In this document: positions 2,035 through 11,309 of the stretch, piece by piece | How the letters are laid out: each line of letters starts with the position of its first letter | Numbering within the stretch: the first letter of the stretch is position 1 | Source of the DNA: Candidatus Altimarinota bacterium | GTDB lineage: Bacteria; Patescibacteriota; Gracilibacteria; GCA-2401425; JAJOLG01 | Reading direction: 5' to 3' | Length of the DNA: 24,793 nucleotides | Assembly: GCA_021129445.1 (NCBI GenBank) | Contig: JAJOLG010000063.1 | Span: 1,821-26,613, forward strand | Position numbers and translations under genes: made by a program | Notes under the pieces: model-generated | What the model saw: the letters and a program-made list of their open reading frames with translations, nothing else | Told to the model about the DNA's origin: nothing | Database searches by the model: none

Positions 2035-2727
2035 TTATTTAATTAACGAATGTAAAAATAATTTTAAAAGAGTTTTAAGTCAATTTATCAAAGATTGCCC
2101 TTTTGATTGCGAATATTTTGTGTATTTTACAGAAATCTGCACTTCTTTAAATTTTAAATTATTAGAGTGGATTTTTTGAATAATTTCCGAACAAAACTCA
2201 TATCAATTATTTTCAATTTTAACTTTTTGTAAAGCCTTTTTAGAAAATGCCTTAAAACCGCTTTGACTATCAGAAACATAAAGTCAGAAAAAAAACCAAG
2301 TTATTAAATTTCAAATTTTATTAAAAATAATACGATAAACCGGCATTTTTTGCAAATTTAAAAAACGACTTCAAATCACAACTTCGCATTCTCAATTTAA
2401 AATCGGATCAACTAATTTTTGAATTTCATCAGGATTATGCTGTCAATCGGCATCAATTGTCACACAAATTTCCGCTCATTTTTGCAAGGCAAAATCAAAT
2501 CAAGTTTGAGTCGCAGCACCAGCTCATTTGTTGATAAAATGGGAAACAAAAGAAATTTTTCATTGATTTTTCAAATCTTCCAAAATTTTTTTAGTTCAAT
2601 CCGTGCTTCAATCATCAACAACAATAATATTTTTGTATCATAAATCAAAAATTTTTTGTACCACTCAAAAAATTTTTTGTTCTTCATTAAAGGCCGGAAT
2701 TATTATGAAAATTTTTTTATTTTGCAT
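2035..2727 (-). CDS. Family 2 glycosyltransferase, dolichyl/polyprenyl-phosphate sugar synthase-like, 230 aa
   Basis: The GT-A fold motifs are in order: the start strand IIIPAFNEE (residues about 7-15), the nucleotide-binding VVDDGSTDGT (about 40-50), the metal-binding TIDADGQHNPDEI (about 100) and SDSQSGFKAFSK, which matches the 'D..sGfra' segment of DPM1/Ppm1-type enzymes. These transfer a sugar from GDP- or UDP-sugar to a lipid phosphate at the inner face of the membrane. The length matches the short catalytic-only subgroup without C-terminal membrane helices. The membrane partner is probably the DUF2304 protein encoded 4 bp downstream. It starts 8 bp after the stop of the second glycyl-tRNA synthetase, so it shares that operon. 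The sugar and lipid cannot be told from sequence. Confidence 0.88.
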
Positions 2728-2735
2728 TTAATTTT

Positions 2736-4124
2736 TTAAACTCTAAAAATTTTTTCTTCCAAATAATTTATCAACTTATTTTTCTCAAATTCAACTTTTT
2801 CCTGCTCTTTTTTTCAAGCTCAATTTTTTCTAACTTTCACAGTTCAATCATTCAAACGGCTTCATAATTCTTCTCAAATATCTTGATCTAAAATAATATT
2901 CGCTTTGCATCACATCAAATCCGCCTGCATCATTCTTTTCGGCATCGGTCATTTATTTTGATCTAAAAATACAAAATCATACTTATCCCAAATTATTTTT
3001 TTCAATTGCTTGTAATGCTCTGCTAAATTGTATTTTGACGAATCAACAACAGGCAAAATCGCCAAATCGTAAGCTTGTAAATTCGCTGGATAATTAAATT
3101 TAAAATGCTCGTTTCACTCATTATCTTTAAACATTTCCAAATTTTCAAAAATAATCGCAAGCAAAATCCTATCAACTCAAAAAGTTGGCTCAACCACAAA
3201 CAAATCTTCTCTTCAATGCTGATTTTTCATATCATAAGTTCAGCGATTTGCAAGTCCTCAAATTTCCATCCATCACCATGGGAATTTATATTCTGTGTCA
3301 ACAGTTCTTTTTGAATAATGTGCCAAATCGTCTTTTGATAAATCTCTAAAACGAATATTTTCCTCAGAAAATCATAAAATTTCAAGAAAAAATTCTTTTT
3401 GTTTTTCCAGCCAAAACTCAAAAGATTTATCATTTTCTTCGTCAGATTGAGAAAAATATTCAATTTCTGCCATATAAAATTCTTTCCTTCTAAACAAGGA
3501 ATTTTGAGCCCCAGAAATTTCTTTTCTGTATCATTTTCAAATTTGTGCAATTCAAAGTGGGAAATTTCAAGAAATTTTTCAATTATTTTTCATAATTTCA
3601 AGTCAATCGGCAAAAATATTTTGTGCTGTTTCTGGCCTCATCAAATCTAAGGTGTTTAGCTCAAACATCAGTTTTTCTTCCTCAATTTCTAATTCATGAG
3701 AAACTCTATTTTCTCAATCTCATTTAAAAATCACATTATTTTTTTCAAAAAAATTTTTATAAAAATTAACAGTGTTCACAACTTCAATTTTAGGAAATTG
3801 ATCCTCAATTAATTTATCACATCTGTGTTTCAAGCCACTTTCTGGATTTCTGATAATGTAATCAAAAAAAGTTTTTGTATGCCCAGACTTATCCAAAAGC
3901 TCTCTTTTATTGATAGTTGGACCATCCATCAAAAAAACATTTTCCTCAGAATTTACAAAAAATTTTCTCCATAAATCCAAAAATTTATTTGTAAACAAAA
4001 CCCCAGCATTTGAATAATTATAAGCTCATTCCATCCCTCAAATCCCAGTAAATGCCGGTTCAATTATTGCATTTTGTTTTAAAATATTTGCAAATTGCTC
4101 AATTGTTATTTCTGATTTTTTCAT
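2736..4124 (-). CDS. Second, divergent glycyl-tRNA synthetase (class II, alpha2 type), 462 aa
   Basis: All catalytic motifs of dimeric GlyRS are present: LMRPETAQNIF (residues 161-171), motif 2 with YRKEIS (199-204) and EFYMAEIEYF, the glycine-pocket segment FPWGWMEIGGLANR (281-294) and motif 3 FGVDRILLAI (315-324). It differs from the neighbouring GlyRS in two ways. The zinc-binding insertion is reduced and lacks its CxxC pairs (one Cys at 102). The C-terminal anticodon-binding domain lacks the usual [17 protein letters not shown] block; it instead has PMPKRMMQADLMGCKANII (393-411) and a basic/acidic coiled-coil-like tail, closer to the ProRS/ThrRS form of the HGTP fold. It lies 44 bp downstream of the canonical gene in the same operon. 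I infer an active enzyme with a changed tRNA preference, perhaps tRNA-Gly(UCA). A role other than tRNA charging is possible. Confidence 0.88.
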
Positions 4125-4168
4125 ATTTTATTTATTATTGACTTTTTATTTTGCACTCCTTCATTTAA

Positions 4169-5569
4169 TTATTTAATTTTATCCACCAAAAACCCCTTTA
4201 AATCCTTAATTTTTATTCTCACTTGCTCTCAATTATCCCTATTTCTCACAGTCACAGTCCCAAAATATGCATCATTTGGCTCATCTCACTCACCCAAAGT
4301 ATCAAAATCAACCGTCACACAAAAAGGTGTTCAAATTTCATCCTGCCTCGCATACCTTCTTCAAATACTTCATTTTTCATCAAGTTCACAAGCAAAATCC
4401 ATTTTTAACATATCAAAAATTTCTTCTGCCTTTGGTGTAAATTTCTTTATTAAAGGCAAAATCGCACACTTCACAGGCGCAATTTTTGGATCAAGTTTAA
4501 AAATCACAGATCAATCCTCTTTTTCAAAATAAGCTTCACAAATAACAGCCAAAACCGCTCTATCAAGTCCAAAAGATGGCTCAATCACATGCGGAATAAA
4601 TTTTTCATTTGTTTGAGAATTTCTAAATTTTAACTCTTGCCCAGAAAATTTGTCGTGCTGAGAAAGGTCAAAATCCGTTCTGTAAGCCAATCAAGTTAAT
4701 TCTTTAAAACCTCAAAATGGAAAATTATATTCAATATCAACTGTTCTTTTTGAATAATGCGATAATTTTTCTTTTGAATGTTCAAAAAATCTAAAATTTT
4801 TCTCAGATAATCAAATATTTTTACAAAAATTTTTCATATCATTTTGCCATTTTTCAAAAATTTCTTCCCAATTTTTCTCTTCAATAAAGTATTCAATCTC
4901 CATTTGTTCAAACTCTAAAAGTCTAAAAGTAAAATTTCACGGAGTAATTTCATTTCTGAAAGATTTTCAAATTTGAGCAATTCAAAAAGGAAAATTTTGA
5001 CGAGTGTTATCCAAAACATTTTTAAATTCCAAAAAAATTCACTGAGCAGTTTCTGGTCTTAAAAAAATTTTTTCAGACTCTCAAATTTTTCACATTTCCA
5101 TTTCAAACATTCAAGAAAATTTTCTCACATCAGTTAAATTTTCAGATCAACATTTTTCACATTTCAAGGAATTTTTATGAATAATTTTTGTCATTTCTTC
5201 AAACGGAAGTCCTTCTGGATCCACTCATTCAAGCTGATTTTCAATCAAATGATCAGCCCTAAAACGACTTTTGCAATCACGACAATCCGTCAAAGCGTCA
5301 TTAAATCAAGTCGCATGCCCACTCGCCTCCCAGGTTTTCGGATTCAACAAAATCGGTGAATCAATTCAAACAATATCCCTCCTCGCTTGCACAAAATTTT
5401 TCCACCAAAAATTTTTAATATTATTTTTAATTTCAACCCCGTAAGGTCAATAAGTATAAGTATTTGCAAAACCTCAATAAATTTCAGATGCAGGAAAAAT
5501 TATTCATTTTCTTTTACAAAATGAAACAATTTTTTGCATTTTTTCCTTGTCTAAAATATTTTTTTTCAT
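4169..5569 (-). CDS. glyS: Glycyl-tRNA synthetase, canonical dimeric type, 466 aa
   Basis: Charges tRNA-Gly with glycine in the cytoplasm. Visible domains: N-terminal class II core with [15 protein letters not shown] (30-44); a four-cysteine zinc-binding insertion (C96, C99, C137, C140); [11 protein letters not shown] (169-179); motif 2 [25 protein letters not shown] from 204; the glycine pocket FPFGGFKELTGLAYR (283-297); motif 3 [10 protein letters not shown] (333-342); and the anticodon-binding domain with [22 protein letters not shown] (401-422) and TVTVRNRD. It is a single-chain alpha2 enzyme, often called GlyQS; the symbol glyS is used loosely. It is first in an operon, behind a promoter at 5588-5615. 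Many of its own glycines are UGA, so its synthesis needs the charged recoding tRNA. Confidence 0.95.
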
Positions 5570-5631: not shown

Positions 5632-5660
5632 ATTAAAAAATCTCCATAAAATGGAGATTT
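5632..5660 (-). terminator. Rho-independent terminator of the FecR-domain gene
   Basis: Perfect 10-bp stem AAATCTCCAT / ATGGAGATTT (5638-5647 and 5651-5660) with a 3-nt loop. On the minus strand a run of six T follows. It lies 23 bp after the stop of the gene ending at 5684. Confidence 0.85.
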
Positions 5661-9299: not shown

Positions 9300-11309
9300 A
9301 TGTCAGAACTTAAAGAAACACTTCAAACAACGGCAAGTTATATTTCTGAATTAGAAAAAAATTGAATAAAAACTTTAAAAGATTTATTTTTAAATTTTCC
9401 GAGAACTTATCAAATTTTCAATAATTCAAACAATTTCAAGGAATTAAGAGCTGATCAATTAAATAATTTTTTTGCAACAATTATAAGAAAAAATACTCAG
9501 CAAACTCGCAATTTTAAGACGCTTTACAAGATAACAATCAGCGATTGAAACTGAAATTTAGCAGAATGTGTTTGGTTCGCAAAACCATTTTTTTGGGAAA
9601 TGTTAAAAACTTGAAGAAAATATTTTTTTGTCTGAAAAGCACAAGAAAATTTTTGAATTTTACAAATTTCTGCCCCAAAAATTGAAATAAATAATTCTGA
9701 TTTTTGATGAAAAGAAATTTCGCCAGTTTATCGTCAATATTGAAAAAAAATCACTTCCGATTGGCTCAGGCAGAAAATTTCTTTAAATTTAAAATTGGTT
9801 AATAATTTATTTTTAGAAAATTTACCAAAATCAGTAATTGAAAGCGAAAAACTGATTTGAAGAGCAGAAGCAATAAAAATTTTACACAATCCAAAAAACC
9901 CAGAAGAACTTGAAAAAGCCAAGGAAAGAATAGCTTTTGAAGAATTATTTTTTTTACAAAAAAATGCACTTTTAAAAAAAGAGGAAATAAAAAAATTGTG
10001 AGATGTGCAAAATATTTCTGTAAAAATGAATGTGGATTTTGTAAAAAAATTTTTTGAAAGTTTGGAGTTCACACCTACAAATGCACAAAAAATTGCAATT
10101 TATCAAATTTTGAAAGACATGGAAAGAAAATTCCCAATGAATAGACTTTTGGAATGAGATGTTTGATCTTGAAAAACACTTGTTGCACTAGTTTCTGCGA
10201 TGAATACAGTTTTATGAAAAAAAGAGGTTGCGATAATGTCGCCAACCGAAGTTTTGACAAGACAACATTTTGCATCGATGACAAAAATGATAGAAAATTT
10301 TGAGAAAAAATTTCCAGAATTTAAATGAGTTTTTAAAACTTGACTTTTACTTTGAGCACACACACCAAAACAAAAACAGGAAATTTTGTTAAAATTGATG
10401 AATTGAGAAATAAATATTTTAATTTGAACACATTCATTGATAACCGAAACTGTGCAATTTCCAGATTTAGGGCTTGCAATAATTGACGAACAGCATAGAT
10501 TTTGAGTTGAGCAACGCGAAAAAATTAAAAAATGAAAACCGATTCATATTTTGAATATTACTGCCACTCCGATACCAAGAACATTGGCTTTGGTGGCATA
10601 TTGAGACCAGGATATTTCATATTTAAATGAAATGCCAAAATGAAGAAAAATAATAAAAACATCTGTTTGTCAGCAAAAAGACAGAGAAAAAACTTTTAAT
10701 TTTATTCGAGAAGAAATAAAAAAATGAAGACAAGTTTTTGTAGTTTGCCCACTAATCCAAGAAAATGAAAAACTTGAATTAAAATCAGTAGTTGAAGAAA
10801 CCGATAGGTTGAAAAATTTTTTTCCAGAATTTAAAATTTTGAGTATGCACTGAAAATTAAAATCCAAGGAAAAAGATGAAATAATGCAAAAATTTAAAAA
10901 TAAAGAGGCTAAAATTTTGGTTTCAACTTCGGTTATCGAGGTTTGAGTTGATGTTCCAAATGCAACAATTATGATTATTGAATGAGCTGAAAGATTCGGT
11001 TTATCACAACTTCATCAATTTCGTGGAAGAGTTTGAAGGTGAGAGCATCAAAGTTATTGTTTTTTGTTTGTAAGTTGAGATAAAAATCCAGAAGAAATCG
11101 CAAGATTAAATGCACTTCAAATACACTCATGAGGTTTACAACTTGCAGAAATTGATATGAAATTAAGATGAGCCGGTGAAGTTTATTGAGTTCGTCAATC
11201 TTGAATTCCTGATTTAAAAATGGCGAGTTTTAATGACCATAAAATGGTTTTGAGAGCAAGAAAAGCTGCGGAAAAATTTTTGGGGATGGATGAAAATTTT
11301 TGTGAATAA
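9300..11309 (+). CDS. recG: ATP-dependent DNA helicase RecG, 669 aa
   Basis: Remodels stalled replication forks and Holliday junctions. The N-terminal wedge/OB domain (residues about 1-240) is divergent. The helicase core has LLEGDVGSGKTLVAL (Walker A, about 280-295), MSPTEVLTRQH (motif Ia), GTHSLI, IIDEQHRFGVEQRE (Walker B/DEQH, about 393), TATPIPRTLAL (motif III), [32 protein letters not shown] (motifs IV-V) and the RecG-specific FRGRVGRGEHQSYCFL. The C-terminal TRG region holds ALQIHSGGLQLAEIDMKLRGAGEVYG. Length is close to the usual 680-700. It starts 8 bp after murC, so it is in the same operon. Confidence 0.96.

Follow-up and report, generated by a model that had tools for sequence, protein, structure and literature searches.

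A highly diverged glycyl-tRNA synthetase paralogue lies next to the ordinary gene in a bacterium that reads UGA as glycine, probably by an independent origin

Codon reassignment depends on a tRNA together with an enzyme able to accept it as a substrate, and a tRNA that reads UGA carries A36. The architecture of glycyl-tRNA synthetase (GlyRS) also occurs outside translation, in PolG2, an accessory subunit of the mitochondrial DNA polymerase gamma that resembles GlyRS. Glycine identity elements include C35 and C36 (PMC9976931). Among the closest described systems is that of the Absconditabacteria (SR1), in which a single GlyRS glycylates both tRNA-Gly(UCC) and tRNA-Gly(UCA) (Campbell 2013, as cited in a review, PMC13293708). 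Precedents for duplicated synthetases include CysRS* at UGA, PylRS2 and yeast GRS2 (PMC9437257).

The stretch of DNA analysed here, to which we refer as the window, spans 24,793 nt of the genome of a tiny, uncultured Candidatus Altimarinota bacterium (GCA_021129445.1, contig JAJOLG010000063.1). As the preliminary description had proposed, translation with table 25 yields two full-length genes of the dimeric GlyRS type, 44 bp apart: glyS1 (4169..5569, minus strand), encoding an ordinary dimeric-type GlyRS of 466 aa with 23 TGA-glycine codons, and glyS2 (2736..4124, minus strand), encoding a highly diverged, apparently orphan GlyRS paralogue of 462 aa with 24 such codons. No terminator was seen in the spacer between them (4125..4168, minus strand), and an Rfam search around the two genes, spacer included, detected neither a T-box nor any other Rfam RNA. 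Just upstream of glyS1, a terminator-like hairpin with a T-run, read by eye (5634..5659, minus strand), suggests that glyS1 and glyS2 start a new transcription unit, and 8 bp after glyS2 follows a gene (2035..2727, minus strand) whose product, judged by eye, is glycosyltransferase-like. Because these genes share one strand with gaps of 44 bp and 8 bp, and the hairpin lies upstream of glyS1, it is plausible that glyS1 and glyS2 belong to one operon; the tandem arrangement would lead to both enzymes being made together.

UGA is the main glycine codon of this organism. TGA codons occurred on glycine columns in 80/99 cases in RpoC, 59/77 in RpoB, 23/33 in RecG and 15/21 in GlyRS1, in agreement with the earlier reading of UGA as glycine, and UGG fell mostly on tryptophan columns. 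The 19 coding sequences of the window end in TAA (16) or TAG (3), and none ends in TGA. UGA accounts for 422/508 glycine codons in the window and for 9516/11341 in the 531 kb of the genome that were read (L379-L418, L170 and the window, together 79% of the genome). This share of 83-84% is as high as or higher than those found in the 11 code-25 relatives sampled (0.16-0.79). One of these, G033, has a single GlyRS at a UGA share that reaches 0.79 in its sampled loci, and an SR1 GlyRS is reported in a review to charge tRNA-Gly(UCA) (PMC13293708); both speak against the suggestion that a second GlyRS is needed to balance the demand for UGA decoding. In this 79% of the genome, a motif search revealed no clear candidate for a release factor gene (GGQ) or for tilS, either of which may be on unread contigs.

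The organism had been assumed to belong to the known code-25 group, and the phylogenetic analyses place it elsewhere. In a tree of RecG (recG, 9300..11309, plus strand), the window genome is sister to G001, the only order-mate sampled, with support of 98/94. The same relationship was recovered with RpoB+RpoC (L170; 99/97, and an SH-aLRT of 99 in another RpoB+RpoC tree), where the two code-25 families sampled group with each other, across a 100/99.9 branch from the window genome. AU tests rejected a grouping of the window genome with the code-25 families, both for RecG under a mixture model (p = 0.036) and for RpoBC (18 rows, LG+G4; p = 0.009), and the database order assignment also puts the window genome with G001. 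We therefore rejected the possibility that this is an ordinary member of the Absconditabacteria/Gracilibacteria. G001 uses the standard code, as seen from the lack of in-frame TGA in its longest ORFs and the presence of TGA among its stops, and none of its 33 tRNAs has a UCA anticodon. A position outside the known UGA-glycine clades is well supported by the three genes (RecG, RpoB and RpoC) and the database order, with long branches involved in these trees. Given this sister relationship to a standard-code genome and the rejected grouping with the code-25 families, UGA=glycine very likely had a second, separate origin here; a literature search that reached few subscription journals found no published report of such an origin.

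The assembly is 94.8% complete by its record and carries 26 tRNAs, tRNA-Gly(UCC) among them. There is no tRNA-Gly(UCA) among these 26; CAU and Glu tRNAs are absent as well, so that the assembly is incomplete for tRNAs and the missing tRNA-Gly(UCA) proves nothing. Besides a normal tRNA-Trp(CCA, G73) on contig C4, the genome holds an odd second tRNA(CCA) on contig C8 (L385:1944-2019) with C1-G72, A73 and G37, which adjoins tRNA-Lys and has a terminator-like hairpin after it. Two code-25 genomes carry the same G37 in their tRNA-Gly(UCA) (L360 and L311), and the standard-code G001 has one tRNA(CCA). We treat the odd tRNA(CCA) as a lead only for UGA decoding. Another tRNA, with a CCG anticodon (L382:3026-3102, contig C5; A1-U72, G73), looks tryptophan-like rather than arginine-like and has a similar counterpart in the code-25 genome G033. 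The organism might thus read CGG as tryptophan; four codons in the window gave no clear answer. In G033, too, a tRNA match of 139 bases (L358, C8:46982-47120) is too long for a plain tRNA and probably represents an intron-bearing tRNA gene.

The first gene, glyS1, is a normal housekeeping GlyRS. It passes the curated cut-offs of both NF003211 (glycine--tRNA ligase; 613 bits, cut-off 312) and TIGR00389 (486 bits, cut-off 243), and it has the four-cysteine insertion and the standard anticodon-binding domain that had been ascribed to it, with 23/23 conserved positions of the anticodon-domain signature kept (conserved positions being those conserved in at least 90% of 35 other GlyRS). The GlyRS phylogeny proposed as a check in the preliminary description placed glyS1 with three standard-code families of the same class (f7, f8 and f3; support 100/96), apart from the GlyRS of the sampled code-25 families, and failed to place glyS2, whose branch is too long. 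The GlyRS of the order-mate G001 sits elsewhere in this tree than glyS1, so that gene transfer was probably part of the history of these genes.

The protein encoded by glyS2 is 32% identical to that of glyS1 and scores under both curated cut-offs (NF003211: 247 bits, E = 2e-73, cut-off 312; TIGR00389: 213 bits, cut-off 243), and we therefore label it a GlyRS paralogue and not a proven GlyRS. Its catalytic signatures are retained, comprising RPETAQ, the motif-2 R and E, the second motif-2 R, EIE and EP(T)FGVDR, in which the T in place of S is also found in an ordinary GlyRS (L059). An AlphaFold2 model (mean pLDDT 82.9) predicts that residues 6 to 462 form a complete GlyRS fold, with a match to the M. 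tuberculosis GlyRS 8u2p at Z 34.8 (2.6 Å over 368 residues) and PolG2 as the next fold match after GlyRS (Z about 30). Judged by these signatures and by the fold (Z 34.8), glyS2 carries the class II catalytic core and the glycine-pocket residues, and the earlier claim that both genes keep these elements holds. Divergence, as counted at conserved positions, is heaviest in the anticodon-reading domain, where 7/23 positions are kept, compared with 54/90 in the core (36/90 changed); PF03129 scored 20.1 bits on glyS2, just under its threshold of 21. None of the four cysteines of glyS1 remains (0/4), as had been noted beforehand. The accompanying claim of a different anticodon-binding domain at the C-terminus was rejected, as the model shows the same fold there, with its conserved sequence erased.

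The glyS2 ORF is intact and uses UGA like its neighbours. Together with the predicted fold and the preserved ATP and glycine signatures, this identifies glyS2, as modelled, as an intact, extremely diverged GlyRS paralogue. It forms the longest branch in both GlyRS trees, and in a tree test its grouping with glyS1 was neither established nor rejected (p = 0.069). At the level of the core, glyS2 is slightly nearer to some CPR GlyRS from outside its class (L110-L113; 35-38% identity, compared with a mean of 32%) than to GlyRS of its own class.

Protein searches returned, among the matches listed, no glyS2 orthologue in 59 relatives, in 288 genomes of the class, in 379 genomes of the phylum or in 126 genomes (49 + 77) of the two orders to which the known code-25 clades belong. 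Nor did any emerge when 84,980 genomes, and viral contigs as well, were scanned with peptide patterns, a format that stretches with TGA glycines would escape. The matches listed were ordinary GlyRS, with roughly 25-50% identity to glyS2 over the matched parts, and among the genomes searched glyS2 appears as an orphan known from one genome. Within the two orders, in which the genetic code was checked for some members only and some GlyRS matches have no in-frame TGA, 111/126 genomes had a GlyRS match and 0 of 126 had two intact adjacent GlyRS genes. The preliminary description had raised a tie between the duplication and code 25, and orthologues in code-25 genomes had been set beforehand as the test of that idea; with 0 found across these 126 genomes, a duplicated GlyRS is, on the sampling described, not a general code-25 feature. 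In each of three genomes of these orders (G236, G631 and G647), the GlyRS matches, most of them partial, were divided between two contigs, a pattern that may reflect contamination, broken genes or real second copies.

Our leading reading of glyS2, held tentatively, is that it provides dedicated or relaxed charging of the UGA-decoding glycine tRNA. In this division of labour glyS1 would charge tRNA-Gly(NCC), reading C35 and C36, while glyS2 would still make glycyl-adenylate and would glycylate the glycine tRNA that decodes UGA; the A36 of that tRNA, or some other change in its identity, would be disfavoured by a normal anticodon domain. The eroded anticodon signature of glyS2 would then mark a release from, or a change of, anticodon specificity, and specialisation for an A36 tRNA is possible and fits this eroded domain. 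The unequal retention of core and anticodon-domain positions (54/90 versus 7/23), the kept signatures and predicted fold, the intact ORF, the dominance of UGA, the separate UGA-glycine lineage and the precedent of CysRS* (PMC9437257) all argue for a dedicated role. Against it, other UGA-glycine bacteria manage with a single GlyRS, up to a UGA share of 0.79, and a review reports that an SR1 GlyRS charges tRNA-Gly(UCA) (PMC13293708); since the window genome lies outside the known code-25 clades, however, their single GlyRS is no refutation of a dedicated glyS2 here. Also against it, no UGA-reading tRNA was found among the 26 tRNAs of the assembly, and glyS2 comes from a single genome. With 36/90 conserved core positions lost, the activity of glyS2 is not assured. 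The composite scenario, in which UGA=glycine arose again within the class, in an order that otherwise uses the standard code, and did so with a dedicated second GlyRS, is doubtful as a whole.

Much of the same divergence could also be read as a loss of stand-alone tRNA charging. A glyS2 that no longer charges alone, acting as an accessory or regulatory protein or as a heterodimer partner (PolG2-like), or drifting as a former GlyRS whose job glyS1 would have taken over, is a somewhat unlikely explanation that draws on the longest branch in every GlyRS tree, the lost anticodon signature and four cysteines, the 36/90 changed core positions, PolG2 as the next fold match after GlyRS and the apparent sufficiency of glyS1 alone, but that has to accommodate the retention of the ATP and glycine-pocket signatures and of the C-terminal domain, as well as an ORF that stayed intact despite a much reduced genome. 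The erosion of the anticodon domain bears differently on the proposal that glyS2 is a general backup or an acquired GlyRS of relaxed specificity, serving the same tRNAs as glyS1 and unrelated to recoding: a backup would be expected to keep this domain, and neither a donor nor a close relative was found, among the matches listed, in the 84,980 scanned genomes and the phylum sample. We regard this proposal as improbable, although yeast GRS2 offers a precedent (PMC9437257), a resistance copy would be another likeness, and the proximity of the core to L110-L113 (35-38% versus a mean of 32%), closer than to its own class, makes acquisition possible.

The odd tRNA(CCA) raises a further possibility, namely that it forms an orthogonal glycine pair with glyS2, in which a modified C34 (e.g., lysidine) would read UGA and not UGG. 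Such a pair would account for a second tRNA(CCA) besides the normal tRNA-Trp(CCA, G73), where the standard-code G001 has a single one; its G37 recurs in tRNA-Gly(UCA) from L360 and L311, and A73 often accompanies alpha2-type GlyRS (PMC3990555). However, unmodified CCA reads UGG, which is still tryptophan here, the odd tRNA is without G1-C72, no tilS-like motif was seen in the 79% of the genome read, and a normal tRNA-Gly(UCA) may merely be missing from the assembly, like the CAU and Glu tRNAs. We consider this pairing highly improbable.

If the dedicated-charging reading is true, a second UGA-glycine lineage with a specialised GlyRS would represent one of two routes to the same code change, would offer a natural comparison for relaxed identity at anticodon position 36, and would perhaps be a source of GlyRS with altered anticodon reading. 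Whatever glyS2 does, if UGA=glycine arose separately here, the view in the literature that it has a single origin would have to be revised. The larger point is thus a probable independent UGA-glycine lineage, in which glyS2 is a candidate enzyme for the recoding tRNA.

Set beside known systems, glyS2 shares with dimeric (alpha2) bacterial GlyRS (NF003211/TIGR00389; T. thermophilus 1ATI, M. tuberculosis 8U2P) the full-length fold, the class II motifs and the glycine-pocket signatures, but lies below both cut-offs, is without the four cysteines and retains a minority of the conserved anticodon-domain positions. PolG2 resembles glyS2 in overall fold (Z about 30) at about 16% identity; glyS2 differs in retaining the synthetase signatures and in its greater closeness to GlyRS (Z 34.8). 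The two yeast genes GRS1 and GRS2 (PMC9437257, PMC3306390) likewise provide two alpha2 GlyRS genes in a genome, the second of them diverged, but GRS2 serves the same tRNAs as a backup under stress, whereas glyS2 adjoins glyS1 and is far more diverged. CysRS* (PMC9437257) is similar in being a duplicated synthetase proposed for recoded UGA; its amino acid is cysteine and its tRNA is known, while in the case of glyS2 the amino acid is glycine and no UGA tRNA was found in the assembly. With the Absconditabacteria/SR1, finally, the window genome has in common the reading of UGA as glycine and an alpha2-type GlyRS, but they have one GlyRS, whereas the window genome, placed outside that clade, has two.
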